Below, one piece after another: positions 759 through 54,018 of a stretch of 64,000 nucleotides of DNA (positions are counted from its first letter, which is position 1; each line of letters starts with the position of its first letter). The notes beneath the pieces are model-generated. The model searched no databases. It was not told where the DNA came from and was given only the letters and a program-made list of their open reading frames with translations. The stretch comes from Psococerastis gibbosa. Its lineage: Eukaryota > Arthropoda > Insecta > Psocodea > Psocidae. The stretch is taken from positions 6,076,001 through 6,140,000 of the forward strand of contig OZ020492.1 of NCBI GenBank assembly GCA_963971405.1, read 5' to 3'. Made by a program: the position numbers and the translations under genes.

Positions 759-952
759 CTATGATTTAGTAATCTCACTTCGAATCCATTTAGAAGTGGC
801 CGAGATTTTCTGATATATACCGGGCTGGTGGTCTATGGCACAACCAAACCCGGCGGATGTGACCCCCGCCAGGGTCCACTGCTCTTTATGGACGACTATG
901 AGGGGTCCACCGGAGTCACCCAGACAGGCATCCACATGACCATCGCTGTGAC
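759..952 (-). CDS. Protease coding exon 7: catalytic serine, C-terminus and stop
   Basis: It encodes HSDGHVDACLGDSGGPLIVV, then TSAGFGCAIDHQPGIYQKIS and a C-terminal helix containing KWIRSEI, ending in TAG at 761-759. Ser258 is the nucleophile and Asp252 the S1 base. The usual Trp of the SWG motif is Ala here (SAG). A GT inside the PGIY codons resembles a donor, but reading straight through gives a normal S1 C-terminus and a stop, so no further exon is needed. Confidence 0.95.
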
Positions 953-3900
953 CTAAAAATTATATTATCAATTAATCAATCAATCAACCATGTACGTATA
1001 TTGCCAAAGATAACATATTACAAAAAACGGTTTCCCGTAAGGCAATGGATGTCCTTACGTAGTTTGATTTTAGCTATACTTAATAAGAAGTTACCAGGAA
1101 AATAACCTTCCTCTATTTGCGATGTTGCGGTCAGAAACATGTCTGCCAGCCGGAGAATTTAAGATACCCGCCGGCCATGCCTTGGATAGTATGTAAACCG
1201 GGCCTTCCTAGTTGAGTGTAAGAGAGGGCTTTACAGCCCTAACTCCGCTAGGTAGGCTTCGTATTAGAACAAAAAAAAAAAAATAATAATCATTTAAACC
1301 AGGAGGGCTAGTGTAAGAGAGATCCTTACTCAAACTAGATTCGTTCAGTAGTAAAACAAAAATTCATTATTTATTTGTTAATTAATTTTTTTATTACTAA
1401 ACAAATAGCAAGGCTCTAACCCCATCATCACTGCCCTCTTTTACCTTTTCTATTAATTAAATAAATAGATTTATATGTATATATTTCAGTTAAATTATGC
1501 ATTCAAGTAACCAGCATGTAATAAACAAGAAAGTATAAAGTAAAATCGTCAAAATGTCGTCAAAATCAGGTAGTTCAGTATTTATCATTGTGCCTCAGTG
1601 ACAGTTTAGAAAGGTTTCTCTAAGAGATAGTTTCTAAGCAATTTAGGGAAACTTTGCTTGGAATAGTAACCTGTTTGGTTTGCTTGCTCCACCTAAAATA
1701 CACACCTAAAATGTACCTGAAGTTTAGAAGCATCGATTGAAAGGTTCAACAGAAAAATGATTTTTTAGTCATTTTTCATGAAAATTGAATTGATTATTTA
1801 TTTCTGCCCCAGAACCAAATTGTCAAGGGCAAAAACCTTTAGGTTTTGTTTATTCTAATAACAAAAAATTGTTGAAACCGTATTTAGCCATTTATGTTTT
1901 AGTTTTTTGAGGTAAAAGCCCAAAATTGAAAAAAAATGGTCCCGAGATATGACGCTTCACCTACATCCCAAATTTCATCATAATCTATCAAGTAGTTTGC
2001 CCAGAGATCGATGCACAGACAGACCGACCTACAGACAGACATGCATCTCGTAAAACCCCCTTTTTGCTTTTTGGGTTCCTGGGACTTCAAAAGGTGTAAT
2101 TGACATTTAAAAAATCCAAAATTTCGATAATCACAAATCTTTCCTTATCCGTACTAACGGATGCATAGGAAAGCCAAAACCCGGCTGCTGGGAATACTGA
2201 CGACAATGCCCCAAATAGAGCAGAGTTCAAGAAATGATCTTCCACCAGTCCTCAGGCACATAGCTCGAGTAGGTTGAGTTCGTTAATGGAATAAATAGTA
2301 AATTCAATTTCCCAATTTGAAACCAACCTGGAGAAATTAGGGCTACTGTGCACTCACAACTAGGAAGGCCCGGGCGTTAATCTATAAAACACATTAGAAA
2401 ATTGTGCTTCATAAAATAAATAAATGAAGAAATGCAACATAACAAAAATTAGGAGCAAAACCATCATAATGTAATGCCACAATAAAAATAAGTGTGCTGG
2501 AATATTCCCTGCAAAGGATTCCATTGACAGCCCCTGCCTGGTGAGTTATACAGGTATTAATTTAAATAATTAATAATTTGAAATCGTGGAAAAGTGCAGA
2601 AGACCATGCCGTCGCCAACCATTAAGCACTGTAGCGGATTCAATTTACGGACCGAGTTTCGTGGGGGCTGTAAGAAATGGTTACTGTCTCGCTTATTAGC
2701 TATGTGAGACAGGGTCTTGTTATAATTTACTCCCGCTGGTAAGTAAACCTGTCGACGAGATTTTCAGTAAATATTCAACGTTTCGTCAACATCTACGGTT
2801 GACATCTTCATTATTATCTTCATCATCATCATCTTCTAAAATTGTGTCTCGGGGCCTCACTAGAAATGAAATGAAATGAAAAACGTCTTTACATTAGGCG
2901 AGCTTTAGCCCCGAAGAGCTACTCTACTACCTAACCTATTTTCCTTTACAATTTTTTTCACATTAATATCATAAAATTATTCCCTGAGAAAAAAGAAAAG
3001 AAAAAACTCAACTATAGAAACAGCTTCAAAAGGACCATCAGCCCAGATTGTACTGTATTATCATCTGACTCCGCCCATGAGAGCCTCTTTGGTTATACGT
3101 AATGGAATTTTTGCCAGGCGTACCCTGAACGCAGCCTTAAGTTTTAGGTTTTAACATACAATAATAATAATAATAATCGCCTTTAATGAAAAAAAAAAAA
3201 AACTACAACATTGTTCGCAGCGAATATTAGGGCCAAAAGCCATCTCTTACAATTAACTGCTTAAAATAAAATGATGATAGACTGTAAAAAATAATCTCAT
3301 TCAGGCGCGGATCTAGAATGGGACCAAGGAGGGGGCTAAGATTAAATATGAAATTTTTTTGAAAAATAGGGCTGAAATATTGGGGTTTTACGCATTTCCA
3401 GAGCAATAAGGGTTCTATATCATAGGTAATTAATGCAACTGAGCACAAGGGAAGACTGAAATAGTGAGGTTTTACGCATTTTGAGGAACCTAATGGGAGG
3501 GGGGGGGGGAATAAGAAAACTCGAGGCAACCGAAATTTACCGCTAGGTTAATTATTTACCAGGGAACTATTGTAGTACCCCCGATTGATAAATAGGAAAG
3601 CATGTACGGGTTCACTCGTACCGATTCTTTTATAACGAACCTGAATTGTTAATACTCTTTCTGAACTTGCATACTCAATAGTAAGGCACTATATACCCGG
3701 TATTGTCATCCGCCATGTTGTATCCCATATTTCCTATATGGCAAGTATTGTAAGAAAAGTAAAAGATTGAAAAATATTGAAAAAAACGAATACACGTTTT
3801 AGTATTTTTTAATTAAACACTGCCCTAATTGGTAGCACGTTTTTTAAATAATAATAAATAAACAACGGTAAATTTCTAAAAATAAATAGGTAAACACCCA

Positions 3901-18900: not shown

Positions 18901-21900
18901 ATTGCCAGACAACCTAAATAAAAAAAATTAACAACATAAATTTAATGATATGTATAGCCCGGCCATATGATAGCCTTATACCTGGAGATAGCCTACTAAA
19001 ATTAAACTCTACGAATTTAAAATATTTAAAGATAATTAATTAAATGACACATTTACTACTTGAAAGGAAAGAGGTTGTAAAAAACTATACGTAGCTTTTT
19101 TATATTTTTATATTTTGACCATTTCTACCTTTTTTCAACAACAAACAACCAAAAAAACATAGCAGAAGACCCACATCTCTAATCACCATGAATATATCAT
19201 GTTATGAACCGACACCCAATGAAATTCGGACCAATCAGGAGGCCTTAAAATTAGAGTAAATTACCCCGATGCAACCGCGCGTGTTTCAAAGTTCAAAATT
19301 CCCAACACTCCCCACCGTGACACAGTCACAAACAATGAACAAATAAAGAAAGAACATTGACAACTGTCAACGTCAATATACAATATAGGAAACAAACCAA
19401 AACAAAACCTTATCCTATAAATCAAGTCTGAGAGGTTTTTTAACACATCTACCTCTTCTGGTAATAATATCAGGATTGTATATAATCTCTTTAGACTCAG
19501 TTTCCACTTCATCTAATTCACTACCACAGTTTTCCTTAATTATGTCAGAATTCAAAGTTTCCGTACAGACAGCGGACAAATTTCTATAGTTCACTCCTTC
19601 TAATAAATACAGTTTTTGAAAAGGTCTAATTAATTCTCCATTGGAGGTCTTCACTTTTGCAACTCGGTCCGCTCCGTCTCTACCTGTAAAAATATCTACA
19701 ACACGACCTAGAGGCCATTTTATTCGTTTTAAACCATCGCAATGAATAAGTACAACATCACCTATTAAAATAGGTCTTTCCATAGTTTCCTTTCCTCGAT
19801 GTACCAATAGATTTAGGTAATCCTTTTGAAACCGCTCTTTGATTTGTTTTCTGACTCTGTGAACATATTCAATTCTTTTAGTATAATACCTTTCATCAAT
19901 AACATCTAAAGTGTCAGAGGCATCACCAGGTTGATGTATAAACATTGCTGGAGTTAAAGCTGTAAAATCATCCGTTGTCCCTGAAACATACGTTAAAGGT
20001 CTTGAGTTAATGACACGCTCTGTATCACAGAAGACTGTGTACAGTTCCTCCACTGTGAGACAAGCTTTACCAACGTTTCTAAATAACAATTCTTTTATCA
20101 ACCGAATTAGACGCTCACAGATTCCATTGTACCAAGGTGATTTTGGCGGATGTGTACGCCACTCTATTTGCTTATCACTACAGTGATCTTGTATTTTGAT
20201 CCAATCAATTGAGTCAAGAATATTTTTAAATCCAACAAAGTTGGTTCCGTTGTCTGAAGATAAGACTCGAACATTGCCTCTTCTGGAAATAAACCGTCTC
20301 AATGCCATGATGAAACATTCAGTTGACAACGACGTCACAATATCAAGATGCACAGCCCTATATACCGCGCAAGTAAATAAAACTCCCCAACATTTGTTGC
20401 CGTCTTTAAGTATTAGTGGTCCGAACAAATCTACTCCAGAATGCTGAAAAACAGACAGACCAATATCTACTCTATTATCAGGGAGTGGAGCTTTTCGAGC
20501 CACCCCTGCTTTAGCAAAAAAACGTTTACAATGAACACAATCCCTCACAACATTTTTTACAACATACCTTCCTTGTATGATCCAATATTTTTCACGTAAC
20601 TTAGTAAGAGTAGTACCGACACCAGCATGTCCCATATTAGCATGTACATACTCTACCAATCTAATGACTAAAAAATTATAACGAGGTAATACCAACAAAG
20701 CACTATTAAAGGTATTATTTCGAGCCTCAACTCTTAGGATTCCATTTTCGTCGTTCTGTACCTGAATCCCTTTTAATTTAGACGTATCTATTTCGCTTTG
20801 TGCTGACTTGATTAATAATAATTCGGCTGTCTCAAGTTCAGCAGCTGTTAAAGGAGACGGTTCTCCTTTTGTTTCTATATTAACAGGCAGATTTCTGATT
20901 ATTCTAGTATATCTTACAATCCACGCACATATGCGGACAATTTTTAAAAAACTAGAATACTTTTCAAAATTGTTAAGAAAGCTCTCCTCCTCCGAAGATT
21001 GCAGGTTCGTGTCCTGTCACTGTAAAAAACTATACGTAGCTTTTTTATATTTTTATATTTTGACCATTTCTACCTTTTTTCAACAACAAACAACCAAAAA
21101 AACATAGCAGAAGACCCACATCTCTAATCACCATGAATATATCATGTTATGAACCGACACCCAATGAAATTCGGACCAATCAGGAGGCCTTAAAATTAGA
21201 GTAAATTACCCCGATGCAACCGCGCGTGTTTCAAAGTTCAAAATTCCCAACAGAGGTAATAAAGAGTACAACACCCGAAATCCGAAAAAAAATAAAACTG
21301 CAACCTGGGTAGGGTTTAATAAATATGGCGATAGAATTAGCAGTGAAGCAAAATTCTTTGATGAAGTATAACAGTAATTTATATTACAAAAACCTAACCA
21401 AAATCGGCGAATTATAAATTAAATTACAAATTAAAATTCAAAAATGGCAATTAGTAGTAAAATTTTAATTATTGGTAATAACTTTTAACAATTTTTAATA
21501 TATATTCCATTCCATTGGCTGAAAATCTCAAAAAGTCTGGGGCCCCAGGACCCCCCCATTTTTCGCCCATGTTCCATTCCTATCATAGACTAAAGTAAAC
21601 AATATATTGAATCATATAAAGCCGAACTGGGCGAGCTCCTGACCAGTTAATTAACTTGGGGGCCAATTACTGGGGAGATTTAAACAAAATGGGGACACCC
21701 ACACTTACAACACCAGACAAAGGGGAGACCTTGTAAGGCCAGCACCTCGCACAGCCAAGTATGAGCTAATGGATCCTATACTATACGGTTTCGCCTGCCT
21801 CAGGAAACTCTCGATTGAACTGAAAGTGGCGAGAAATGCTACTAACTTCCCTAAATTGATTAGAGACCATCTCTTTGGCAAAGCTTTCTACAACGTCACT

Positions 21901-24900: not shown

Positions 24901-27900
24901 AATACCCAGTATGGGACATAGGTTTTACCCAGAAATGAAATACCACGAACTCACGAGTATCTTAATTTTATCCAATACTGGAAATTTTGCATTTCTTGTT
25001 AAGTGACAATCGAACATCCCACTATTCCTCTTTTGTAGAAAATTAAATTTAGGACGGATTACACAGACCAATGAATATTCAAATGGCATATTTATCTCCG
25101 TTATTAATTAAGGAATGGGATTTTAATACGGCAAAAAATTTGGTAACAAAGTTAGGAGTTGTATACCAAAAGTACACCAAACTTGCTTTTTCGTACTTGT
25201 GCGAGTCTCTACACATCATGCGATCGGTGACCTGTCGTAACTCAACACAGGTATTACCTACAGAGGCGGCTGAAGAGGTTTTTCGGATCCATTCATCCAT
25301 TCATTGAGTTGTTTGTATTCGAATAATGTTTTTTTAAATAAAATAAAAAAATTAAAACCGCTGAAGTCTTCACTCTTCTGTCAATGGTCACATGAATTAT
25401 AATCTAGCGATTTGCTTCGGGATTAATTTTTAAAAAAATCGGGGGCGTTTGAGAGAATTAATCCCCAAATTTATGGCTCAGGTTCATAATTTTTTTAATT
25501 ATTTTATTTAAATCTTAACGCTACGCCCTTTGGGGCTTACGCGTTGTATGTTTATGTGTATTGGAATACTGTGGTTTGGCGCCCATTCCACCGACCGACT
25601 TGGGCTATTTACAAAAACGATGACGTGGTAGCAGACATTCAAGACTTAGGTGCGTTTCCACCTACCTCGCATTGCAGAATGCAAATGACATTGACGGAAA
25701 TTAGAATTTTCCTTTGTATAGAAATCTATTAAAATGTTTGTACTTAACATATCCCATGACGCCATTTCTTTAATTTTAGTTTGTTTGTTTGTGATTTTAC
25801 TGTATGATCATTGATCAATTTTAACTATGGCATAGAGGAAAATAAACATTTCCGTCAATTCTGCAATGCGAGGACGATGGAAACCCCTAAGTCTTGAATG
25901 TCTGCTACCACGTCACTGTTTTTGTAAATAGCCCTAGCCGGTCGGTGGAATTGGCGCCTTTTGAATGGGGTTGGTGTGGTGTACAAAGGGAAAACTTCAT
26001 AATTAAAATATCAAAGACACGTTTTTATTTTTTACTAAATTGGATAATCTGATGATACCTGGCTTAAGGCTTGAAGCCTAAGTCATTTTAGTCACAGCGA
26101 ATACTACTAATGATAAATACTACCTGATGACAAGTGTACCTCATAAGCCAGGTACACAAAATTAACATTAAATTGTTCCTACGTCATTCAGGTCCAACAC
26201 AAGTCATAATTCATAATGTATTCAAGTAACGTTACAACCTTAGTGAAGGCGTTTTTGCTGACTACACCTATTGCTTAAAATTAATAATGAAAAAAAACCA
26301 CATTACAGGTCTTACCTACCAAAAGCATTGTCGGTTTTCCCCCACCCTGCAATCACCGCGTCATAGCCCTCGAATGAGTCAGTGGCAGTTGGAAGACAAA
26401 TTGGCAAAATATTCTCCCTGAATTTGACCTTCTTTGACAATTTCAACAGAGCAATATCGTATCTGGAACAAACGGAAAGTTATTATTTCTATATTTTACA
26501 AGCGGGGCTTGGGACCGCTTCGGGTCACCGCCCCCCTTGCGCCAGCGGCGGGCGGAAGCTCGCCCCTTCGGGGCCTCGCACGGGCTTTACGCAGCTCGCC
26601 CCTTCGGGGCTCGCATGGCACAACTTCAATTTCTAGAATTTCTAATTTTCCGCGAAATTTTTTAAATTTTGTTTCTTTCATAAGAACCTTCTCCTGACAA
26701 TAACAAACACAACAAAACAAAAAAATAGTGAAATCGGTCCAGCCGTTCACGCGTGATGCCGTGACATAGGGATTCATTTTTATATATCTTCTTAAATTGG
26801 GGAAATATGTTAATAGTGACAATAGGTACATTAAACCGGTACAATAGTATAATGTGTGATAATTTTTATCCACATAAAATACATATTATAGAAATCGGTG
26901 GCATTTTAACGTGAAACTTGAAGATATCCACACTGTAACCGAAATGGTAGACCTAAATTGGATGATTTGTTGATAATTTGTTTACATTAGTAAACAACAT
27001 GCAAAACTGCAAATTTACGAAACATTTTGCCCCGAATAAATAGGTAGATTTTTTCGAAATTATAGAAAACGGGAATAATATCTAGTGAAATTTCCTGTTT
27101 GACCCAATTTTAAAGGGGGAGGGGGAAAGATGGAACCTTTTTTTTTGTATACTCGCTTAAAACCCCCATTCATGCTGCCTTCAACAATATATTAATTGAT
27201 CATGTTGGTTAAAAATTGCAGGCTGTGAAATTTTTTAACTTTATACATGCACCGCTGAGAGTACCCTTTTCCCCGCATTTAAGCGACTTTCACGTCCCCC
27301 TTAAGTACCTAGCTATGGCGAAACCGCTTGTCGAGAAGCAAAACCGGTTATACAGTTCTAAAGAGCAAGAATAGTGGAAAGTAGCCAAGTGGTTTTAAAT
27401 TTTTCTCATTTTTTCCCCGCGAAAATTGCCCCCGAAAAAAGTGTTTTTTTTTGTTTTGTTCAAAATGGGCATTTTTTCGAGTTGCTGCACGTTGTTCCTT
27501 TTTGAGCTATCCAGAAGCAGTCAGGTATGGCATAGATGGGACACTTAGAGGGAAAGTAGGCCAAAGGTTCACCAAATACCGCTAGGAAGCCATTTTGGCC
27601 GCAGTGGTTCTTGATTTTTTTTTATCGGGTTTTCCGCAGTATAGGAAAACCAATGTAAAAGGGTCGAAAATGGGAAAATTAGGCTCTGATTTCGGGAAAA
27701 AGGTCATTTTTAAATTTTTTCTTTCATAAGAACTTTCTCCTGAGAATCACAAACACAACAACAACAACAACAAAATTAGTGAAATCGGTCCAGCCGTTCA
27801 CGTGTGATGCCGTGACACAGGGAAATAGGGATTCATTTATATATATATATATATATATATAGATTATTATATATATTATTTATATTTTGAATAATTTTTA

Positions 27901-30900: not shown

Positions 30901-33900
30901 TGCCATCTACAGAGGGAAACCCACTAGTACAGTTACACCTTATCTGCGATTTGAGACTTGCTCAACTAGAGGAAAAGATGCAAATGTGACTAGGGAGAGG
31001 AAACCTTGGTTTATATAGGACTGGGAGCGGGGGGAGGAGGGGGTGGGAGGGGGCGTGGCTGGTTACCTATTCCTAACTAATAGCTAGATCTATTAGAGGG
31101 GTTGTGTGAATGTTATGTCGTTTGTTAACTTTTCCCTATTGTGTAAAGCTCTTTTGATTTCAACATTTTCAGAAAAATTTAAAGTGTAACTTTTCTTTAT
31201 TTTGTGTAGGGCTGTCCAATTGTGAGGATCGAATGTGTGATTTTCCGAGTTAAGGTGTTTCGCGAATGTGCTGTTGGTGTTGGTGTCTCCTATACCTGTT
31301 ATATGTTCTCTGACCCTAGTTTTAAAACTTCTGCCTGTTTGGCCTATGTAAATTGCGTTACAATCATTACAATTTAGACGATAAACTCCATTGCCTTTTT
31401 CCTTTTCTGGTTTGGTTTTGCAGTTCATGAGTTTATTGGCCAAATTGTTGCGGTTATACGGGGCTGGTGTTTTGTCTGTTGTAGAAGAAATGAGGTTACT
31501 TATTTTTTCTGTGATTTTTTCTATGTATTGTATCCTGAAATATGATTTATTGTTTTCCGGGTTTAAGCTCTCTGGGGGGTAAATTAGTTTGAGGTTGTGT
31601 TTGATTTTTGTGATGTCATAGGATTCTATCTATTAGATTGAGATTGAAATTGTTATTTTGGGCAATTTGTTTTATTGTATTTAATTCATTATTATAGTTG
31701 GTTTCATTCATAGGGATGTTAAGGAGTCGAAAAATCATACTATGGAATGTTTGTGCTGGAATGGGTGAGAAGAATCAACAGGGATTATATTATCGCTATG
31801 GGTTTCTTTACGAAATATCTTGAAGTCTAGGGTACTATTATTTTTGGTGATGGTGAGGTCTAAGAAGTTCAGGGAGTTGTTTTCTTCTACTTCCATGGTA
31901 AATTGGATTTTTGGGTGAATTGTGTTGATAGAACTTAAGAAATTGTCCATTTGTCTGTTACTTCCTGTCCAACTGCAGAAGATATCATCCACATACCTTG
32001 TCCAGAAAGATATACATTTAACTAGGGGATTTTTATTGAGTAGAAGTTTGTGTTCGAAGTTATCCATAAAAATTGCAGCATGAAGGGGAGAAAGGGAAGA
32101 ACCCATAGGTAGGCCTATTTTTTGTTGGTAGTAGTCGGATTCGAAACGGAAATAGTTTTGATGAGTGCATGTGTCTAACAGAAGGAGGGTCTCAGAAATA
32201 AGGCTGTTCGAGGTATTATTGTGATAGAGTGACTGGGCAACTAATTTACGTACTTCGGGTACGGGAATATTAGTAAACAGATTTTTGACATCGAAAGAGA
32301 CGAGTTTGGCATTGCTGGAAAAGGAAAGGTGCTTAAGGCGGGAAACTAACTCGAATGAGTTTTTGACGCTGTGGCGGGGTGTGAAGTTTTATTAAAATGA
32401 AAAACCACGAAGTCACGAGTAATCTAATTATTTATGTTAAAACAGCTAGTTTGCTGAACAACTCAAAATCTATAGGAAACTTAAAGAAAAATTCGCCATT
32501 GCTTCACTTAACCTCAAATTTAACCAAGATTGCAAAAGACTTAGAATCACTCCTAAATACATCCAAATTAAAACAGCAACCTTTTCCACACAATCCAATG
32601 AAGCACTTAGAATCGCCCAGAATGTCTGGCTAGTAGAAGAAATCAAAAAATGGTTCAAAATCAGAGACAGCATAAGCCTTTACCTTAAAGTTTTACATTC
32701 AGAATTATGTTTCAAACTTCACTTTTTAGAATGGACCACCTTCCAAGATCAAATATACACAAAAATTAGTGGCATCACTTACAAAAAACGCACACCATCG
32801 CGACACGAAACATCAGATGCGCGGGACGCACGTAAGTTCCCGGCCTAACCCCTTTCATCGATCGATTGTAATGTATTGAAAATAAGGCGGAAAAATCAAG
32901 AGTGGCCGGAAGGTGCTGCCATCTACAAAAATCAAGGGAACTAGAGGAAGAGACAAGTCAGGACAGGAGATAAGGAAAATGGCAAAAAAAGAAGGAGAGG
33001 TTGGTTTTGATTTGTATTTTTAAAAAGAAATGATGGAAGGCTGAGAGCTTTTAAGGCCTTACCGGGGCCAAGAGGGATGAGATATTAAGTACCTTTACAC
33101 TGACAAAACATTGGACTTGGAGCGGCCATGAACACCAGGGAAGGAATTGGCTTTATAAGAGATTGATGTGGATTCGCTAACCTATAATCAATTCTGTATG
33201 CAACACGGAAGGTAGGATCTATCCGCTGGTTTCAAGTTTTGTATTCATCTATATACAGTATCTACGGTAGTATGTCTTTCTTGAATTTTTAATGAATTAA
33301 GATTTGTTGGGAGGGCGGTCTCTGGTAGTCATTGTAGTCCTGTTTTCGACATGTAGGTTAGGGTTTACCTACATTGGTTGGCCATCTTTTCTCAGACTTA
33401 ATTCTAATAGCTTAACCCTTGGCGCTTTCCACCTATTGCTGATCTGAGACATTTTAGGACTACCAGAGATCGCACTTTCTATTTACACTTTTACAGCAGT
33501 TAAGTAGGCCTAAATAATGTTTCACACTGGTTACTTTTGATTTTGTTTATTCGGTTATTTTCGTAACATTACAGAATTTTATTTCATTTACCTGGGTAAA
33601 ATAGTTGGTTTTATTTGGAAAGAAACCCCTGAGAAGAGATAGAGTGTATTTTGTCTAGGGTAGAGGAGATTTCAGATGCCTATTGTGTGAGGTAATATCT
33701 GGCCTCATTAAATTTGTAGCTAGCTCCTTAGATCTCTAGTAAAATGCATTCTACTCATGCACGCTGGTGACTGGCCCCTTAGTGGCTTTAAGAGTTAGTC
33801 TGGGCATTACATTCCATCCGTCAAGAAGGGACTGGTACCAGTTACTAGTGTATATTGAGAGGAGGCCTTTATGAGAAGGAGTAAAAACAAGAAAAGAAAG

Positions 33901-36900: not shown

Positions 36901-39900
36901 CAGCACCACGCACCGACAAGTATGAGTGACTGGATCCTATACTACAAGGATTCGCCTGACTGACTTCTCCCGAGTGAACTGAGAGCGGCGAAAAATGCTG
37001 CTAATTTCCATAAAAACTACTATATAATATCCAATTAAATTTTTGACAGGATTAGAAAGAAAGAAAGAACATGTCTTTATTTTCCATGTGGGCGATTTTT
37101 GGGCGTTTCGGCCCACTCTTACAATTAACCCATAAAGGTTATTGTGAAGTCTAGACTAGGCGATTATCTCATCGATTAATCCAGTATTTTGTAATAGGCA
37201 AAAGCAGCCTAGGGCAATTATATAGGCACCGTGGTCCATAAGTCCATGGGACTTTTTTTTTTAAATACAAGATTTATCACATACATTGAATTTTTAATGA
37301 ATGTATCCGTTACGGAACCTATACTATAATAGCAACAAAAATGGAAAAAGTATGGGTTCATTCATACATAATTATATATCTTTCTACCTGGCTCCAAAAT
37401 ATGCGTCCCGTAAGAAAGAAATACCACCTAATGATGACATTAAGTTATTCATATCTTGAAAAATTCGAATTTAAAAAGTCGGGAATATAGTTTATATGAG
37501 GAATAAAGTGTTCTTTCAGTCACAAGTAATCAAACTCAAAATAAAACTGTTCTATTAAATTCTTAGCTTTCAAGCTTTTAGTAACTCACTGTCATCATTA
37601 GGTAGTGTGCCATCTATCCCATCTATATAGGTACACTGCCTTAATTTATTTTTCACTTTCTCATTTTTATTGCATTTCTTTAAATAAGCGCCAAGCACGT
37701 AGCCAGGATTTTATTTCGGGGAGGGGGAAATGTATTAGGGCATAAATAATCCATAACTTTTCTGCAAAACCATAGCTTTGCTTGGGAAAGCAACCTATTC
37801 GGATTTTACTCTATTTAACACCTGATGCATACCTTAAGTTAGACAGCATCAATAGATTGGTCCCACAAAAAAATTTATTTTAGTCATTTTTCATGAAAAT
37901 TGAGTCTTATATTTTTCCCCCAAGAACTATCAAGGGGCACGCTAGCTATTGGGTGTTGTTTACATTTATAACGACTACAGCAATATACTGTATAGAGTTA
38001 CACATACATGTGAATGTATATAAAATATTTGGAGCCGTTTTTTAGAAAAAAATTATTTTGTCGTTTTTTTTTTAGTTTTTGTAGGGTGAAAAATTGAATC
38101 CAAAATAAAAATAATCCTCACGAGGTATGATTTTTTTTTAACTTATAATTTTCATTCATCAAAATCTACGGCGCAGTTTGCCTACAAAACGATGAACAGA
38201 CCGACAGACAGACATTTCGTAAAAACCACCTTTTCGAGTTCCTGAGACCTCAAAAAGTGTAAATCCACTGAAATCTCGGAATAGAAAATTTTGATCACTA
38301 CAAAGTATTGCTTATACTACGTAGAAATGGGAAAGCAAAAAAGGTTTATCTCAGAGAGCATCGTCAATGATGAACCCCGTCTCACCCTCTTCTGAGAAAG
38401 CGCTCTTATCATCCAATAAAAAAAGGCCGTAATACCTGCCTATTCTTCATTTCTACGTACTGTTTTCATTTATGTATATTTTACAAAGGGGTTTTGCATC
38501 GCTTTTACAACAATCACTTTGAATCAGCATGATTCTAGTGTTTCTGATTTTAAAATAAGCGTTATTAATCAATAATTCATACAATAACAGTTTTAAACTT
38601 TATCTCTGCCCTTTCAATATTCAATTAATTCGTCAGAAAATAGTGTCTAACAGCTTACATGGGCAATAAGGCTATAAGGGAGAAAACTGTCAATTATCTA
38701 CAATAATTATTAATCAAAAAACCATACAATAGCAGTTTTATACTTTATCTGTGCCCATTCAATATTCAATTAATTCGTCAGAAAATAGTGTCTAACAGCC
38801 TATATGGACAATAAGGCTATAAGGGAGAAAACCGTCAATTATCTACAATTATAAAAACGTATGGAGCCGTCACCACCGGTAACACCCATTAGCCACATTT
38901 TTCAAACATAATATTCATTCATGTGAAATTTTATAGATTTATACGCCGTAGATCTTTCTTTCTTTCATTTCCTTACCCAGTATTCCCTGGACAAGGAGCA
39001 CATATTTACAAAAATATACAATACATAGTATTCCCGCATCCCCAAGCTAGCGCTTGATTAGGACAACGGGCTTATAACAATTATTTTTTGTTATTTATTT
39101 ATAGAGTTTATTGCTTTCCAATTTATACGTAGTATAAGGAAAGCTTTGTGATGGTCGAAATTTTTGATTCCGAGATTTCAACGGATTTACACGTTTTGAG
39201 GTCCCAGGAAACCAAAAAAAAGTTGTTTTTACGAAATGTCCGTCAGTAGCTCTGTCTGTCTGTCTGTCAGTCTGTCGCTCTGTCTGTCTGTCTGTCTCTT
39301 CATCGATTTCCGGGCAAACCACTCGGTCGATTTTGATGAAATTTTGCATGTAGGTTCACCAAAATCATACCTCAAGACCATTTTTATTTTGGGCTAACTC
39401 AATTTGGGGGGGGGGGGTTTATTCTCAGAAAACTCCGAAAAAACGACCAAAAAAATTATTTCTCAAAAACGGCTGCAATGATTTCTTTTTAATTCACATA
39501 CACTGTAGTCGCCATTAATGTTAACATTAACAAAATGCGGGGGTTGCTTGCCCCTTGATAGTTTACTTCTGGGGGTAAAAAAATAAAAGTAGCTCAATTT
39601 TCATGAAAAATAATTAAAAAATCATTTTTCTGCGAAACCTCTCCATCGATGATTTCTACCTTCAGGCATGATTTAGGTGTTAAATTTAGTAACGAAACCG
39701 GACAGGTTGCTTTCCCGAAAAACTATTTGGTTTTGTGCAAAAAAAATGTTTTTCGAAAAATTATAGACAATTTACGCTGAAACGCATTGCGTGCCCTGCC
39801 ATTATTGCTGTGTGGTAATGTGTTGGTCTGACCTATGTAGAATTTACCTCACCTCCAGTGACGTCAGGTGGACACCCCCCCCCCCCCCCGAGATATCGGA

Positions 39901-51900: not shown

Positions 51901-53996
51901 GCTTGCAGGCCGTTGGGGTTTAGGTGGATCTTCTTAGAATATTTCATTATGTAAAATGATATGAGTTTTCCCCTTTATTGATGATATACCCACTTATTCA
52001 GAGGACGTCAATTCACAAATTCACATAGGCCTAGGAGTATCAAATCGAAATAAAATATATTTGCTGTTAAGGTGCCCATTCCACATACGTACAACGTCAA
52101 CGAAAAATTGAAAAATGACGTCAAAATGACGTAAATTGACGTGGTAGCAGAATTTTTAGTATGTCTTTAATGTCTGCTAAAACGTCATTTTTCAATTTTT
52201 CGTTGACGATTGAAGTATATGGAATACCCCCCTTCAGAAATCATAGTGGGGAACATTTCAAAGGCTTAAGAATTCCTTTAGCGTCTTATTATAATTGTAT
52301 GTGCAAATTCACTATTGAAATTCAGCTTCGTATTTCGATGCACAAAGGACTTTACATCTATCCAAAGTCAGCGGCGCAGCTTAATCAGGCCACATTTTGA
52401 CATATATACGACTATACGAGTAGGAGCAGTTCAATTGTGTAGTGCCCGTACAAAAGGTATCAAAGAGACTGTCTTGTTACCTTTTATCGTAGATTTTAGA
52501 AGAGCACTGTAGTCAAAGTGGGTTTCTTTATACAACAATGTTCTTTTTGATTTTCCACCTCCTGTATTTTGAAACTACAAGATTCGTCACCCTAAAGTCA
52601 GCATAAAAAACAACATTTGGAGATAATAAATAATGACTTTTTGTTTTATTACTAAGCTAACCTAGCAGAGTTAGGGCTATAAAGCCCTCTCTTACACTCA
52701 GCTAGGAAGGCCCGGGACCGCCTGCTTTACATGCCCTCCGAAGCATGGCCAGAAAATGTAGCATGTGTGGGACTCGAACCAACAACCTTGCGGTTGAAAG
52801 TCAGAGTTCTCACCACTAATCTACATGTCCTGACTGATAATAGCGTATCTGAGCCTGTAAATTTTGCTACAAACATTCAAATACGCCCTCCTAATCGAAA
52901 GTTTCAGCCTTATTATACTAGATTTAATTTTTTCGCAAAAGTAGATCTCATGACAAGCTCACTATATCTGATCATTTAGCCATAAATGTTGGTTACGCCC
53001 TTCTATTTAGCCATAAATGTTGGTTACGCCCTTCTATTTAGCGGGGCTGGCTGAAGATATAATAAAAATATATAAGGAATGTAAAAATGAGGAAGATGAC
53101 CGTGAGCTACATAGATAATACGGTGGTCAAACTCACATGTTAGAATAAAAGATTACAGGCTCCTTAGGGGGACCCAAATTGTGGTCAGGGCCCCGACTCC
53201 AAGATCATACTGCTATACAGGCTCAAGACAGTCACTTTTGGCCAATACTTTTTACCGTACTTTTTCGACAGTAGTTGTGATGCAGTGAGGACTGTTTGAA
53301 ATGCTGTAAACCTGCTTAACTCATATATTTCAATTATAGAATTTAGAATTACGTATTTTACTGTTGAAATCGGTTTTACCATATTTATTGTAAAAATGGG
53401 CACGACTGATGACCATTGTATATATGACTAATAATGATTCTCCATTTGCAAGCCAAATTTTCATAGCTTGAAGCCTTAAAATGATCCTAGAATCCGTAGT
53501 ATAAATCTTCCATAAAAAAGTCATAAATGCCATAGTGAACTTATGTAATGTATAGTGGATTATAACAGAGATGTAAAATTGCTTTGTTCAGCAGAGCTCG
53601 GTCAGTAAAGTTAGATCTCGGATAAACAAGACAATTTGGCCCCACTGAATCGAAGACAGACAGAGAAGGATCAATAACCTGCCTTTGGGGAGGGGGGGGG
53701 CAGCCATTAAGACGTATATTGGTATTTCAACCTATACATACAATAGTTAAGAAAAATTACTAGGTCATTTTACACAAGATCACACAGTTATTATATAAAG
53801 TCAGGTGCAAATCTTGGGATTTTTTTTGAGGGGAATTGAGTTCATTTGTAAGCACTTCAAAGTTCATACTAATGTATTTTGATTAATTTTTTACTTAATT
53901 AATCTAAAACTAATGACTTAGCTTAGTCCACTTACCGATGACATTTGCAGAAAGGAGGTTGATTACAAGTAGGCCACATTTCCACCAGCCCATCAT
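759..53996 (-). CDS. Secreted trypsin-like S1A serine protease zymogen, 7 coding exons (complete)
   Basis: Spliced gene: coding exons 53996-53936, 49810-49621, 43679-43614, 35868-35719, 26462-26320, 14763-14641 and 952-759 sum to 927 nt, i.e. 308 residues plus TAG. Every intron is GT-AG and every junction keeps frame. The protein has a signal peptide (residues 1-20), a short pro-region, activation site R62|IIGG, catalytic His102 (TAAHC), Asp158 (YDIALL) and Ser258 (GDSGGP). Asp252 sits at the base of the S1 pocket and predicts cleavage after Arg/Lys. The mature part has eight cysteines: Cys52-Cys178 would tie the pro-peptide to the protease, with 87-103, 224-243 and 254-282 as the usual pairs; the common 136-201 pair is absent. 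No clip, CUB or other accessory domain is seen. It is likely an extracellular protease activated by a trypsin-like enzyme; substrate and pathway are unknown. The family call is sure; the exact orthologue is not named. Confidence 0.95.
1165..1300 (+). mobile_element. SINE-A 3' fragment
   Basis: It shares the body of the SINE-A family: CCTAGTTGAGTGTAAGAGAG, GGCTTTACAGCCCTAACTCC, then an A-run. The tRNA-like head is missing. Confidence 0.6.
1500..1665 (-). mobile_element. LINE 3' tail fragment
   Basis: On the minus strand it repeats the last coding residues and 3' UTR of the LINE copy at 21690-22030 (the CACTGAGGCACAA block, then GACGATTTTACTTTATACTT). It is truncated and mutated. Confidence 0.6.
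1645..2165 (-). mobile_element. HINE-like repeat, truncated
   Basis: Minus-strand order matches the family: microsatellite-flank block (TTTTACGAGATGCATGTCTG), the GCAAACTACTTGATAGATTA block, then the TTTCATGAAAAATGACTAAA block. The short GTCT tract is degenerate. Confidence 0.65.
2640..2860 (-). mobile_element. Penelope-like element fragment (low confidence)
   Basis: The minus strand contains GATGTCAACCGTAGATGTTG followed by a GACGAAACGTTGAA motif and a CTCGTCGACAGG segment, which resemble text usual near Penelope-element 3' regions. No coding sequence remains, so this rests on recall of the motif. Confidence 0.35.
3590..3645 (+). mobile_element. HINE-like 3' end with hairpin variant
   Basis: GGAAAGCATGTACGGGTTCA plus CTCGTACCGATTCTTTT is the 3' terminus of the HINE-like family with a different but still pairable hairpin stem (GTACGGG/CTCGTAC). 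Confidence 0.6.
4188..4366. mobile_element. hAT-like MITE with G/C runs
   Basis: The termini are CAGGGACGGATCCAG and its imperfect complement CTGTATCCGTCCTTG. Both sides carry the 8-bp direct repeat GGGTAACG (4180-4187, 4367-4374). The 8-bp duplication and CAG ends point to hAT. There is no coding capacity, and poly-G and poly-C runs lie near both ends. Confidence 0.8.
4527..5288 (+). repeat. 5' LTR
   Basis: TG...CA ended, 762 bp, matching 7072-7833. It contains TGATAAAAAGGCAGCGACTG (near 4761-4780), a TATA-like box upstream of CGTCCAGTCTCATCC, an initiator-like site, and so probably the element's promoter. Confidence 0.92.
5296..5308 (+). promoter_or_regulatory. Primer-binding site for Lys-tRNA (CUU)
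   Basis: TGGCGCCCAACGT lies 7 bp past the 5' LTR and is complementary to the 3' end of animal tRNA-Lys(CUU), including the CCA tail. It fixes the element's orientation as plus. Confidence 0.85.
7072..7833 (+). repeat. 3' LTR
   Basis: Copy of the 5' LTR. The T- and G-run just upstream (7044-7065) is the likely polypurine tract, although it is more homopolymeric than usual. Confidence 0.92.
7838..8050. mobile_element. G/C-run MITE, hAT-like, diverged
   Basis: Its left part (GGACGTATACAGGGG, then GTAGCTGCCCCC) and right part (CCAGCCC-run, GGGCTGGATCCCTCC) resemble the ends of the 4188 family. The middle is an AT palindrome around 7905-7970. No clear target duplication was found. Confidence 0.55.
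8161..8990 (+). mobile_element. HINE/DINE-1-like element, full-length copy
   Basis: It starts ATTGCTTTCCAATTTATACG and has a (GTCT)n/(TGTC)n tract at 8286-8352, conserved AT-rich middle blocks, and a C-run near 8921. It ends with AAATTGGAAAGC (inverse of the start) and the hairpin GTTCGAGTAAACTCGGAC followed by CAGTTCTT. There is no coding capacity. Flanks are T-rich on both sides, as expected for Helentron-type insertion between Ts. Confidence 0.8.
9240..9400 (-). mobile_element. SINE-A fragment
   Basis: On the minus strand it carries GAGGTCATATAAAGCAGGCG, then CCTGGTTGAGTGTAAGTGAA and the GGCTTTATAGCCCTAACCCC block. It is diverged and lacks the tRNA-like head. Confidence 0.6.
9560..10120 (-). 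pseudogene. LINE fragment: RNase H region (R1/Jockey-like)
   Basis: A minus-strand frame from about 10035 to 9694 contains WYTDGSRLG (the RNase H TDGS motif) and GLGVFGPGVKY. Just upstream in another frame sits PTAAMEIVLDFPPLHVAVE, the linker usual between RT and RNase H in R1/Jockey-type LINEs. Frameshifts and stops separate the parts, so it is dead. Confidence 0.75.
10385..10625 (-). repeat. Interspersed repeat family D copy
   Basis: The minus strand reads TGGTATACGTTCTCGATGTC, then a segment with TACAAGCGATAATTGACAAG and GACGCAATGGAACAGGCG. The same text occurs at 16465-16655, 42750-42850, 54720-54930 and 57590-57830. It is non-coding and its class is unknown. Confidence 0.65.
11109..12030 (+). 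mobile_element. HINE-like copy carrying an inserted MITE
   Basis: It starts ATTGCTTTCCAATTTATACG and has a short GTCT tract near 11396-11418 and a C-run near 11997-12014. It is interrupted at 11208-11365 by a MITE. The terminal hairpin is missing, replaced by unrelated sequence after about 12030. Confidence 0.75.
11208..11365. mobile_element. 158-bp MITE with TIRs and CAG target duplication
   Basis: The ends are CAGCCTGATCGGGGCGTTTA and the inverse TAAACACCTCGATCAGACTG. A direct CAG flanks it (11205-11207, 11366-11368). Removing it restores the family consensus GTCCCAGGAACCC, proving insertion. A 3-bp duplication suggests a Harbinger- or CACTA-like origin. Confidence 0.8.
12285..12705 (+). 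mobile_element. HINE-like 3' half
   Basis: It begins in the TTTCATGAAAAATTATTAAA block and runs to ATTGGAAAGCATGTTCGAAT and CGGACCGGTTCTT. The 5' half is absent. Confidence 0.75.
14020..14186. mobile_element. MITE with G/C runs, TSD of up to 10 bp
   Basis: The ends are AAGGCCGTAGCCAGG and CTACGGCCTT. The direct repeat GCACACGGTG flanks both sides (14010-14019, 14187-14196). Poly-G and poly-C tracts lie inside each end. It may be hAT-like with a duplication extended by chance. Confidence 0.8.
14641..14763 (-). CDS. Protease coding exon 6
   Basis: It encodes RTGTNILHKAVVPILSEEEC, then a 170-loop containing WHQQKN, and ELFPEMLCAG. Cys224 and Cys243 correspond to the 168-182 disulfide. The acceptor is TTTTTGCAG and the donor G|GTACTGG. 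The sequence just past the donor is a T/TTA-rich run. Confidence 0.95.
16465..16655 (+). repeat. Interspersed repeat family D copy
   Basis: It contains GTCCCTTGTCCAATGCCAAC, then GGCAAACTGGTATACGTCCT and a segment with GACGCAATGAAACAGGCG. It matches 57590-57830 in the same orientation. Confidence 0.65.
16924..17108. mobile_element. hAT-like MITE with G/C runs
   Basis: The ends are CACGGGCGACGCCA and its imperfect inverse TAGCGTCACCCTTG. The flanks TTCTTATC and TTCTTATG match at 7 of 8 positions. Three C-runs and several G-runs lie inside. Confidence 0.7.
18605..18826. mobile_element. Fold-back MITE
   Basis: The left arm (ACTCATATTTTCACCATTCA, then TGGTTACGCCACTGC and GCTAGCTCAGTG) is mirrored by the right arm (CACTGAGCTAGTC, GCAGTGGCGTAATCAGACA, TACTGAATGGTG, ATATGAGT). 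The arms are about 80 bp with mismatches; the loop is about 60 bp. Confidence 0.75.
19415..20997 (-). pseudogene. BEL/Pao pol remnant: integrase plus C-terminal domain
   Basis: An open frame of over 500 codons without its natural start. In order: RNase H-integrase linker (VRICAWIVRYTR, LTAAELETAE), the zinc-binding HHCC domain (HANMGHAGVGTTL, then CVHCKRFF), and the DDE core. The core has VDLFGPL with the first Asp, LSSDNGTNF with the second, and WYNGICERLIRLIKELL with Glu. A DUF5641-like tail follows (GDVVLIHCDG, WPLGRVVDIFTGRDG). The integrase half looks undamaged, while the rest of pol is absent. It could still give active integrase if translated, which is doubtful without a start and gag fusion. 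Confidence 0.92.
21000..21020 (-). promoter_or_regulatory. BEL/Pao primer-binding region (Arg-tRNA-like)
   Basis: Directly inside the 5' LTR the minus strand reads TGACAGGACACGAACCTGC. Its complement, GCAGGTTCGTGTCCTGTCA, looks like the T-arm and 3' stem of an arginine tRNA. The isotype is inferred from memory of tRNA sequences. Confidence 0.5.
21690..22030 (+). pseudogene. LINE (CR1/L2-like) RT C-terminus and 3' UTR
   Basis: An open stretch from about 21715 to 21940 reads GDLVRPAPRTAKYELMDP, then LRKLSIELKVARNATNFPKL and KAFYNVTEA, ending in TGA. It resembles the short C-terminal tail after the RT of CR1/L2-type LINEs. An A/T-rich 3' UTR follows. Related scraps lie at 1500-1665 and 36858-37015. 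Confidence 0.65.
22770..23995 (+). pseudogene. Non-LTR reverse transcriptase fragment, interrupted
   Basis: In pieces along the plus strand: ATTFLEKHRGKKKPFHLMLF then VDLEKVHGRLPR (RT motif A region, 22810-22900), GQVPQSLLFADDILL (motif C FADD, near 23260-23300), and TYGAECWPLSKDEVQLLHVA (23637-23696). Stops and frameshifts separate them. About 130 bp around 22980-23110 is a foreign SINE-like insert that also occurs near 29330-29450. Confidence 0.8.
24232..24425 (-). mobile_element. SINE-A copy, diverged
   Basis: The minus strand contains GGTTCGAGTCCCACGC (B box), a GTAAAACAGGTGG stretch, GTTGAATGTAACTTGTCAGT and the tail AAAAAGTCATTATTTATTTA. Confidence 0.65.
24640..24745 (-). pseudogene. 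LINE RT C-terminal scrap
   Basis: The minus strand encodes VVQNRDDWRSAVGQSSTKGA, the DRxxWR pattern usual just before the stop of several LINE families. It is about 100 bp only. Confidence 0.45.
25577..25959. mobile_element. Long-palindrome MITE, family P copy 1
   Basis: The ends GGCGCCCATTCCACCGACC and GGTCGGTGGAATTGGCGCC extend into arms of about 160 bp that hold the same landmarks in inverse order (GACGTGGTAGCAGACATTCA; CATTGCAGAATG). Copies occur at 46477-46874 and 58552-58895. Confidence 0.85.
26320..26462 (-). CDS. Protease coding exon 5: catalytic aspartate
   Basis: It encodes YDIALLKL (catalytic Asp158), the LPICLP segment (Cys178, bonded to the pro-peptide cysteine), and the AGWGKTD signature, ending in TTT G|GT. 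The acceptor is TGTTCCAG. An alternative donor four bases downstream (AG|GTAAG) looks stronger by consensus but would break the frame with exon 6, so G|GTAGGT is the one used for this product. A LINE-like repeat begins only some 40 bp upstream of this acceptor. Confidence 0.95.
26500..26800 (+). mobile_element. LINE (RTE-like) 3' end with GC-rich hairpins
   Basis: A GC-rich block (26505-26625) with two CTCGCCCCTTCGGGGC hairpins is followed by TTCTTTCATAAGAACCTTCT and by GTGAAATCGGTCCAGCCGTT. The latter phrase is common at 3' ends of arthropod RTE-type LINEs. It starts about 40 bp upstream of the acceptor of protease exon 5, in antisense to the gene. Confidence 0.6.
27715..27870 (+). mobile_element. 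LINE (RTE-like) 3' end with TA microsatellite
   Basis: It shares TTTCATAAGAACTTTCTCCT and GTGAAATCGGTCCAGCCGTT with 26500-26800 and ends in (AT)n at 27839-27860. Confidence 0.6.
28400..28604 (+). pseudogene. LINE RT C-terminus
   Basis: An open stretch reads GTIRGRPRKAYAEDIKKDM then KLKRTAQDREEWRRRWKDLL, ending in TAA. A GRPRxxWxxDI-like motif followed by DRxxWR is characteristic of LINE C-termini. Confidence 0.65.
31093..31443 (-). pseudogene. Penelope GIY-YIG endonuclease domain
   Basis: Minus-strand frame: GVYRLNCNDCNAIYIGQTGR then SFKTRVREHI, with HLNSENHTFDPHNW and NREKLTNDIT near the end. The spaced YR...YIG core, Cys pair and RxxxR are the Penelope-type endonuclease signature. It is out of frame with the RT part upstream, so the copy is inactive. 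Confidence 0.88.
31735..32390 (-). pseudogene. Penelope reverse transcriptase domain, 5'-truncated
   Basis: An open frame across the RT core: LVSFDVKNLFTNIPV (motif A), GLPMGSSLSPLHAAIFM (motif B), FWTRYVDDIFCSW (motif C), and NNSLNFLDLTI (motif D/E region). The start is missing because the sequence switches strand at 32392, and a frameshift near 31735 separates it from the endonuclease. Confidence 0.88.
32430..32850 (+). pseudogene. Penelope N-terminal coding region
   Basis: Plus-strand frame with IASLNLKFNQDCKRLRITPK, then an Ile/Lys-rich helix-forming stretch ending in KFPA and a stop. Position, charge pattern and CxxLxxxPxY-like spacing fit the region before the RT in Penelope elements. 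The match is weaker than for the RT. Confidence 0.5.
33990..34190 (+). pseudogene. Penelope endonuclease C-terminal scrap, plus strand
   Basis: It repeats the end of the endonuclease (SENHTFDPHDWTALHKIKKS), then the NREKLTNDIT segment in another frame, in opposite orientation to 31093-31260. Confidence 0.75.
35425..35535 (-). mobile_element. SINE-B (tRNA-derived) copy
   Basis: The minus strand reads GGCTTGTGGTCCAGCGGTTA (A box) and then a segment with GTAGATCGTGGGTTCGAATC (B box). Related B-box ends lie at 23080-23110 and 29340-29380. It looks like a tRNA but flows into repeat sequence, so it is a SINE head. Confidence 0.65.
35719..35868 (-). CDS. Protease coding exon 4: His-to-Asp linker
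   Basis: It encodes residues 106-155 plus two bases: ARLKDIKIYLGEYDT at the start, then a Glu-rich strand, the VSKKIIHPSF motif typical of the 70-90 region of trypsin folds, and TQPD at the end. The acceptor is TTTTTCAG and the donor AG|GTATGC. An EYD motif in the calcium-loop region is common in arthropod extracellular proteases. Confidence 0.95.
36000..36190 (+). repeat. Interspersed repeat shared with 49255-49445
   Basis: Both copies share GCTTTAAGC, GTTTATTAACTTGA, ACTGACAGGGT and TTATAGTGGATTCC in order. A third partial copy lies near 58265-58305. Non-coding, class unknown. Confidence 0.6.
36291..36340 (+). mobile_element. hAT terminus-like fragment
   Basis: AGCAATGGTTCCCTAGTGTG plus GGGTTGCGACCC resembles the usual hAT MITE end (CAGTGGTTCCC...GTGGG...GCGACCC). 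No opposite end or duplication was found. Confidence 0.35.
36858..37015 (+). pseudogene. LINE RT C-terminal fragment
   Basis: It reads YNTRQGGDLVRPAPRTDKYE then a stop, a diverged copy of the coding tail at 21690-21940. Confidence 0.6.
37735..38345 (-). mobile_element. HINE-like copy, 3'-truncated
   Basis: The minus strand carries TTGCTTTCCCATTTCTACGT, the TTTACACTTTTTGAGGTCTC block, a short GTCT tract and the central blocks. It lacks the terminal hairpin. Confidence 0.75.
38565..38850 (+). repeat. Tandem duplication, unit about 140 bp, two copies
   Basis: Each unit contains ATACAATA(A/G)CAGTTTTA, TTCAATATTCAATTAATTCG and AAGGCTATAAGGGAGAAAAC. The copies differ at a few positions only. Confidence 0.85.
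39111..40010 (+). mobile_element. HINE/DINE-1-like element, full-length
   Basis: It starts ATTGCTTTCCAATTTATACG, with a long GTCT/GTCGCTCT tract (39238-39298), G-run 39407-39417, C-run 39876-39888 and the ending ATAAATTGGAAAGCATGTTG, then GAGTAAACTCGGACCGGTTC. The family's best-preserved copy with both ends. Confidence 0.85.
40497..40674. mobile_element. hAT-like MITE with long G and C runs
   Basis: The ends are CAATGGCGGATCCA and TGGATCCGCTCTCG. The perfect 8-bp duplication CGTCACTA lies at 40489-40496 and 40675-40682. The internal C-run (40630-40649) is 20 bp long. Confidence 0.85.
42269..42624. mobile_element. hAT MITE (SPIN/Charlie-like termini)
   Basis: The ends are CAGCGTTTCTCAACC and GGTTGAGAAACGCTG, with subterminal GTGTGCCGCGGCACAC and TGTGCCGTGAGG. 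The target duplication is TTCTAGGT/TTCTAGAT (7 of 8). Such ends are shared with hAT families known to move between distant animals. Confidence 0.85.
42750..42850 (+). repeat. Repeat family D fragment
   Basis: GTCAACCTACACCGGCTACA and AGCGATAATGGACAAGCTG are shared with 54840-54885 and 57713-57752. Confidence 0.6.
42952..43080 (+). mobile_element. SINE-A 3' part
   Basis: The body GCATGTAAAGCAGGCGGTCC, the GGCTTTATAGCCCTAACTCC block and an ATTT-repeat tail. Confidence 0.7.
43110..43496. mobile_element. G/C-run MITE interrupted by a SINE
   Basis: The ends CAGGGACGGATCCAG and TATCCGTCCTG match the 4188-4366 family. Between them, 43139-43350 is a complete SINE-A. No clear target duplication is seen for the MITE. 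Confidence 0.7.
43139..43350 (+). mobile_element. SINE-A (tRNA-derived), complete
   Basis: The head GACATGTAGAGTAGTGGTAC has an A-box-like start, followed by a TTTCACCCGAAAG loop resembling a Glu-tRNA anticodon arm and the B box GTTCGAGTCC. The shared body and a TTTA-repeat tail follow. Pol III transcription is expected from this structure. Confidence 0.8.
43614..43679 (-). CDS. Protease coding exon 3: catalytic histidine
   Basis: A 66-nt micro-exon encodes YQCGGALVSEWFVLTAAHCV and His, ending in a split Arg codon. It holds the Cys87-Cys103 loop and catalytic His102. The acceptor is TTTGATTGCAG and the donor AG|GTATAG. The two bases left by exon 2 plus the first base here make Gly84. The exon is too short to appear as an open frame of notable length, so it would be missed without splice-aware reading. 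Confidence 0.95.
44004..44228 (+). mobile_element. SINE-A, complete
   Basis: Same structure as 43139-43350, with GGTTGTTGGTTCGAGTCCTG at the B box and an A-run followed by an ATTT-rich tail. Confidence 0.8.
45768..45985 (-). mobile_element. SINE-A, diverged
   Basis: The minus strand has GAGTAGCGGTACAGACTCCG, the TTTCACCCGAAAG loop, and a TTTA-repeat tail at 45796-45822. The middle is rearranged. Confidence 0.7.
46477..46874. mobile_element. Long-palindrome MITE, family P copy 2
   Basis: AGGCGCGGTTTCTATCGGCG at the left is mirrored by GGTCGGTGTAAACCGCGCCT at the right, flanked by TA on each side (a Tc1/mariner-type duplication). The arms share the GACGTGGTAGCAGA and GCAGAATGCAAATG landmarks. 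Confidence 0.85.
47516..47645 (+). mobile_element. SINE-A 3' part
   Basis: It begins GGGCATGTAAAGCAGGCGGT; the body and ATTT tail follow. The head is absent. Confidence 0.75.
47704..47925 (+). mobile_element. SINE-A, complete
   Basis: AGGACATGTAGAGTAGTCGT head, TTTCACCCGAAAG loop, GGTTCGAGTCCCAC B box, the body and an ATTT-rich tail. Confidence 0.8.
48700..48785 (-). mobile_element. HINE-like terminal scrap
   Basis: The plus strand reads AAGAACCGGCACGTGAGAAC at one end and CACAGAGCTTTCCTTATATA at the other, the two family ends brought together by a large internal deletion. Confidence 0.55.
48828..48912 (+). repeat. (GATT)n microsatellite
   Basis: An interrupted run of TTGATTGATT units. Confidence 0.9.
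49621..49810 (-). CDS. Protease coding exon 2: pro-region and activation site
   Basis: It encodes residues 21-83 plus two bases. An acidic, hydroxyl-rich stretch is followed by PPGTCGVP (Cys52, expected to pair with Cys178), then QKR|IIGGN, the zymogen cleavage site, and the start of the catalytic domain (GEFPWQAHIRID). Cleavage after Arg62 would free the Ile63 N-terminus. The acceptor is TTTTTTTAG and the donor GG|GTAAAA. The pro-region is too short for a clip domain and lacks its cysteine pattern. Confidence 0.95.
50000..50330 (+). mobile_element. Possible LINE 5' fragment
   Basis: TCGGATCCCACCGCTGCTAC and later a frame VVIGASAWNVEEVGQ resemble the start of a LINE endonuclease domain (the xxWNV motif). 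It is short and broken. Confidence 0.35.
50356..50619. mobile_element. MITE with about 38-bp TIRs
   Basis: CTATATATGAGTTGCCTATT with AGCAAAAGCAATCCTCTCC at the left is mirrored nearly perfectly at 50581-50619. The interior is AT-rich and non-coding. Confidence 0.85.
51181..51720 (-). mobile_element. HINE-like copy, internally deleted
   Basis: The minus strand starts with the family's 5' block (AGGAAAGCTTTCTGATGGTC) and ends in GGAAATCATGTTCGAGTAAA then CTCGGACTGGTTCTT. The GTCT tract and centre are deleted near 51610. Confidence 0.75.
52072..52231. mobile_element. Palindromic MITE, small
   Basis: Left TGCCCATTCCACATAC, then CGTCAACGAAAAATTGAAAA; right AAAATGACGTTTT-like arm, TTTTTCGTTGACG and GTATATGGAATACCC. 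It shares the CATTCCAC end and a GACGTGGTAGCAGA motif with family P. Confidence 0.75.
52622..52835 (-). mobile_element. SINE-A, complete
   Basis: The minus strand has GGACATGTAGATTAGTGGTG, the B box GGTTCGAGTCCCAC, the body, and the AAAAGTCATTATTTATT tail. Confidence 0.8.
52978..53042 (+). repeat. 31-bp tandem duplication, two copies
   Basis: The unit TAGCCATAAATGTTGGTTAC plus GCCCTTCTATT occurs twice in a row, identical. Confidence 0.9.
53936..53996 (-). CDS. Protease coding exon 1: start codon and signal peptide
   Basis: It encodes 20 residues, MMGWWKCGLLVINLLSANVI, then one base of a split codon. A basic/tryptophan-rich N-end followed by a hydrophobic core is typical of a secretory signal. 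The donor is G|GTAAG. Two adjacent ATGs are present; the first (53996) is chosen, but the second would remove only one residue. The one leftover base joins AA of exon 2 to make Glu21, which supports the pairing. Confidence 0.88.
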
Positions 53997-54018
53997 GTAG
54001 TAATGAACTTAGAAACCC
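53997..54018 (-). other. Protease 5' UTR stretch with a likely upstream splice acceptor
   Basis: Reading the minus strand, a pyrimidine tract followed by CAG ends at 54019, and 22 nt of non-coding sequence lead to the ATG. This suggests that a non-coding leader exon lies further upstream (above 54019). Transcription could instead start nearby, in which case the AG is incidental. Confidence 0.45.

Follow-up and report, generated by a model that had tools for sequence, protein, structure and literature searches.

The 64,000-nucleotide stretch of DNA analysed here as a whole (the window; C20:6076001-6140000) very probably holds a single host gene whose eight coding exons would together encode a 369-residue secreted clip-domain trypsin-like zymogen. 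The protein is a new member of a known protease family, and an ordinary one for that family, so to speak, and the value of the result lies mainly in annotation. Raw sequence was sufficient to read a gene whose short exons are scattered across 53 kb. A model that closes perfectly in frame may still miss a whole domain if the lost exon is phase-symmetric. The domain in question, a clip domain, shifts the inferred biology from that of a plain trypsin-like zymogen to that of a clip protease, a class of regulated extracellular cascades.

The initial annotation had proposed seven minus-strand exons joining in phase, with lengths summing to exactly 309 codons, and we found all seven in place and of the lengths given: the six introns are GT-AG, with phases 1, 2, 2, 2, 1 and 1, and the exons add up to 927 nt, that is 308 residues and a TAG stop. 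We number these exons 1 and 3 to 8, all on the minus strand. Exon 1 (53936..54018) comprises a coding part of 61 nt (53996-53936) and, after an acceptor AG, a part of the 5'UTR (54018-53997). Exon 3 (49810-49621, 190 nt) carries the linker with its cysteine C113, the activation site LQKR/IIGG and the start of the catalytic domain; exon 4 (43679-43614, 66 nt) runs from YQCGG to TAAHC with the catalytic His57; exon 5 (35868-35719, 150 nt) covers the middle of the catalytic domain; and exon 6 (26462-26320, 143 nt) holds DIAL with the catalytic Asp102, the PICLP cysteine and AGWG. Exon 7 (14763-14641, 123 nt) contains the C168-C182 loop, and exon 8 (952-759, 194 nt including TAG) contains DACLGDSGGP with Asp189 and Ser195, an Ala at position 215 and the stop. 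The 3' end of exon 6 (26316-26320, minus strand) reads G/gtaggtaag; a donor 4 nt further on (GGTAG/gtaaga) looks nearer to consensus, but shifts the frame. The reading as one S1A trypsin-like zymogen gene, spanning some 53 kb and possessing an activation site, the triad and a stop, was supported. The claim that the 308-residue product is complete was not supported, as a likely eighth coding exon lies in phase inside the first intron of that model.

The motifs TAAHC, DIAL, DACLGDSGG, SAGFG and QPGIY are present in the translation and represent His57, Asp102, and Ser195 with Asp189, Gly216 and Gly226. The linker and the catalytic chain have eight cysteines between them, which can be assigned to four disulphides of the family; both partners of the C136/C201 pair are missing together, and they would sit in different exons. 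A comparison with the S1 peptidase profile PF00089, proposed at the outset as a check, matched the spliced protein over positions 1-220 of 220 (179.2 bits, E 1.4e-52), while the sole NCBIfam match fell far under its cut-off. When the window was searched with an HMM trained on eight S1 genes from elsewhere in the genome, three of the seven exons were found at 62.2, 43.9 and 33.1 bits, exon 7 scored 11.4 bits and the remaining three exons were missed; in 20 Markov-1 control windows, the best score per window ranged from 1.5 to 10.4 bits, so that exon 7 stands barely over the best control. The spliced protein was also searched against the whole genome (assembly of 409 Mb, 68 contigs), with 128 of 248 candidates scored: all seven exons were returned, in order, in the window, and no second copy of similar identity over several exons was listed genome-wide. 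The gene is above chance and real, and it is single-copy at the sensitivity of the genome search used.

Its closest paralog lies on the same contig (C20, about 17.963-18.001 Mb, minus strand) and is 43% identical over the catalytic domain (109/251 aligned residues), “closest” meaning here the highest identity over that domain among the S1 genes compared, of which this paralog was the one multi-exon gene assembled, and not a position in a tree. The best single-exon gene of the genome search was 37% identical (128 of 248 candidates scored). Two introns match those of the paralog in position and phase, one between CV(H/A)R and A in phase 2 and one after the GWG block in phase 1. Three introns of the window gene are not matched in this way: the one before YQCGG is missing from the paralog, and two others are placed differently there. 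No relative was confirmed in IMG/VR contigs or prokaryote genomes. Three places on C20 other than the window (L011; L079-L083; L102) show a clip-like stretch upstream of same-strand S1 exons, and we take the gene at L011 (C20:6608000-6617000) to resemble insect Filzig.

At the N-terminus, exon 1 carries an ATG-ATG, a stretch of hydrophobic residues resembling a signal (MMGWWKCGLLVINLLSANVI) and the donor gtaagt; the predicted secretion signal comes from a hydropathy calculation. The initial annotation had placed the end of the gene at 54018, whereas the coding start is the ATG at 53996. Since 54018 directly follows an upstream acceptor, the 5'UTR itself is probably spliced. We scanned the window and the next 10 kb for first exons with an open ATG...GT reading in phase 1 and obtained 188 candidates between window positions 49900 and 74000. 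Three of them passed both thresholds (donor > 3 bits, hydropathy > 1.9), two of these being exon 1 read from its two ATGs. Exon 1 might nevertheless come from another transcript, the true N-terminus (perhaps a transmembrane one, as listed for honey bee cSP26) being encoded in other exons. Exon 1 is indeed short and no homologue of it was found outside its own locus, and cSP26, which the paralog resembles, is of TM-2LC-C-SP architecture (PMC1761132, Table 1). Against this, exon 1 ranks first for donor and hydropathy among the three passing candidates, and its ATG is preceded in the same exon, at a distance of 15 nt, by an in-frame TAA. We consider a different N-terminus unlikely, and exon 1 is assigned here, on its sequence features, as the putative first coding exon of the gene.

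The exon that had been overlooked, exon 2 (50341-50159, minus strand, 183 nt, phase 1-1), lies 348 nt before exon 3, and its acceptor at 50341 and donor at 50159 match the phases of exons 1 and 3. The clip cysteine pattern has a single minus-strand match, at 50300, inside the first intron of the seven-exon model, and the six cysteines of exon 2 are residues 35, 44, 50, 61, 71 and 72 of the 369-residue protein. Summing exon lengths is blind to such an exon because 183 nt are whole codons and skipping them keeps the frame. With exon 2 included, the gene has 1107 coding nt without stop or frame break, and introns of 3594, 348, 5941, 7745, 9256, 11556 and 13688 nt. A steady growth of intron length, apparent in the seven-exon model, was dropped as an observation, the first two introns now being of 3594 and 348 nt. 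The splice sites of exon 2 are mediocre (donor score of 1.5 on a frequency matrix, pyrimidine fraction of 0.53), but three of the exons already accepted score lower still at their donors (-1.0, -1.6 and 0.8). An alternative phase-compatible acceptor at 50443 would give an exon 2 of 285 nt and a protein of 403 residues; we prefer 50341 for the longer T run at its acceptor. Over the remainder of the first intron of the seven-exon model, loose thresholds gave three further phase 1-1 candidates, two of them with a common acceptor. Their density is 0.83 per kb, against a range of 0 to 2.42 per kb in other places; by eye, none has domain character, and they were not retained.

What is the domain encoded by exon 2? 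Its cysteine gaps are 8-5-10-9-0. In the clip stretch that precedes the 43%-identical paralog by some 10 kb (L083), the gaps are 4-5-10-6-0; in that near 18.64 Mb on C20 (L102) they are 8-5-10-7-0, and in that of L011 14-5-10-8-0, the second and third gaps (5 and 10) thus being common to exon 2 and all three same-contig relatives. Among the loci compared, the L083 stretch matches exon 2 with 30.8 bits (tblastn E 3e-4), a score reached by none of 300 cysteine-fixed shuffles, the best of which gave 25.8 bits against the eight loci L079-L086; it has an acceptor and a donor that allow a phase 1-1 reading, with further acceptors nearby. The matches to L011 (E 0.18) and L102 (E 0.41) have weak scores; what speaks for them is the cysteine spacing and their place upstream of S1 exons. 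Within the window, both strands included, a strict clip pattern has one match versus 0 in 100 Markov windows, and a looser one also has one match versus 0.07 per Markov window. Pfam gave no clip match for the N-terminal part up to E 10, and none for the clip stretches of the three relatives, one of which has a sub-cut-off match to an unrelated family; as these relatives are unmatched too, the Pfam models may lack cover for the clip kind found here. A PDB search with the clip and linker returned nothing up to E 10.

One has to keep in mind that exon 2 could be skipped, always or in one isoform, exon 1 being joined to 49810 to give the 308-residue zymogen with a plain propeptide that was first described. 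Such a transcript would keep its frame, exon 2 being phase 1-1, and the codon at the exon 1/49810 junction would be Glu. The clip exon is, however, open, correctly placed and endowed with the cysteine spacing of its relatives; since an unused exon is not expected to keep such features, we regard skipping as a very unlikely account of the gene. Exon 2 is likely part of the gene, a conclusion drawn from sequence.

Position 215 deserves separate mention. It is usually a Trp, part of the lining of the substrate cleft in the majority of trypsin-like enzymes; the window gene has an Ala there, as does the 43%-identical paralog. With the last exon as query and the window gene left out, the same genome gave 42 Trp, 9 Phe, 5 Tyr, 4 Ala and 5 others at this position (78 loci searched, 69 rows, 65 with an aligned residue), the 78 loci being a selection from a longer list of genome matches and not every place. 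Two of the rows, L010 (an Ala row) and L014, are matches by chance within long stretches, L052 (Ala) is poorly aligned and L048 reads SAG; the Ala of the paralog (L070) is clear. In thrombin, the W215A/E217A mutant is an anticoagulant, and the loops of W215A are markedly more mobile (PMC10339233). It is possible, if doubtful, that the window gene and its CG8170-like relative on the same contig form a branch of clip proteases in which Trp215 was fixed as Ala while the triad and Asp189 were kept, the enzymes being perhaps, by analogy with thrombin W215A, weak or cofactor-dependent by design; an in-frame skip of the clip exon could give a second form. That we are dealing with a dead or dying copy is hardly credible, for although large introns with transposon remains and an Ala instead of Trp215 would suit a pseudogene, the uninterrupted 1107-nt coding sequence, the full triad, Asp189 and cysteines that can all be paired speak against it, as do the lack of any other listed copy of similar identity (128 of 248 candidates scored) and the presence of the same Ala in the paralog.

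The predicted protein, read with all eight exons, would begin with a signal peptide and one short-loop clip domain; a linker of some 50 residues that holds a single cysteine would connect these to a trypsin-type S1A domain. For activation, a second protease would cut after the Arg of LQKR/IIGG, and the new N-terminus would form the active site; a disulphide between the linker Cys 113 and the PICLP Cys 239 would hold the clip part on, and the active enzyme would be expected to cut its targets after Arg or Lys. Clip proteases are described as non-digestive and found in haemolymph (PMC11172050). By family, the enzyme most likely serves a cascade outside the cell, be it in immunity, cuticle or development and in body fluid or matrix, rather than digestion.

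Transposons had been placed in the introns of the protease gene, and Pfam matches of open frames in introns 5 and 6 of the eight-exon gene agree with this. In intron 5, two frames at 31096-32388 (minus strand, that of the gene) match RVT_1 (1.2e-11) and GIY-YIG (2.5e-5), and we take this to be the remnant of a Penelope-like element; in intron 6, a 533-aa frame at 19418-21016 (also on the gene's strand) has DUF5641 and integrase zinc-binding matches and is presumably a BEL/Pao-type fragment. As regards other host genes, 11 of the 46 stop-to-stop frames of at least 90 aa were compared with Pfam; tRNA and Rfam scans of the window gave no matches. A satellite with a 13-bp unit (GTGTTTATACTTA), repeated some 130 times with 86% matches, occupies 59183-60859 and has at least 45 matches in its own genome, including that of the window, on nine contigs among those listed. 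A 145-bp unit is present as two tandem copies, 92% alike, at 38562-38849. Outside the window, C14:11085363-11086704 holds two adjoining COX1 matches that together span the profile; as TGA is the sole in-frame stop under the standard code, this stretch probably represents mitochondrial DNA that was copied into the nucleus recently. An open 684-base piece of a mitochondrial COX1, translated with code 5, looks like that of an insect, and the host of the protease gene is probably an insect.

How does this gene compare with known systems? The catalytic domains of plasma kallikrein and enteropeptidase, the best PDB matches, share with it an S1A domain, by sequence, and a trypsin-type pocket; at position 215, the alignments show Trp or Phe for them and Ala for the window gene, and we take their N-terminal parts to be unlike its own.

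The likeness to arthropod clip-domain serine proteases is broader. Four cysteines and a cysteine doublet upstream of the protease domain are the mark of a clip domain (PMC10036332; PMC11172050), and they are present here (Cys 35, 44, 50, 61 and 71-72). The rules given for Group 1a of the honey bee place Cys2 and Cys3 five residues apart and Cys1 and Cys6 30 to 70 residues apart, with fewer than 16 residues between Cys3 and Cys4 in Group 1 clips; clip proteases also have an Arg/Ile activation site and a linker Cys paired with the PICLP Cys (PMC1761132). In the window gene, these spacings are 5 and 38 counted residues, both within the bee rules, the Cys3-Cys4 interval is below 16, activation would occur at Arg/Ile, and both the linker Cys (C113) and the PICLP Cys (C239, in ILPICLP) are present. 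It differs from these proteases in having no Pfam or PDB match to a clip domain at the thresholds used, and in its Ala215. Our guess is that the domain is of the clip-D kind.

A further comparison is with the CG8170-type protease. In the honey bee, Drosophila CG8170 has its counterpart in cSP26, which is listed with AQRR/IVGG, TAGHC and DVAV (PMC1761132), and the C20 paralog has all three entries. The window gene has LQKR/IIGG, TAAHC and DIAL instead of these orthologue motifs; LQKR appears in no honey bee row with a stated activation site in PMC1761132. The window gene thus differs from this type in its activation site, in TAAHC versus TAGHC, in DIAL versus DVAV and in three introns, and shares with it, through features of the paralog, a clip stretch readable in phase 1-1, Ala215 and two introns; by its motifs, it is a sister kind rather than the CG8170 orthologue.
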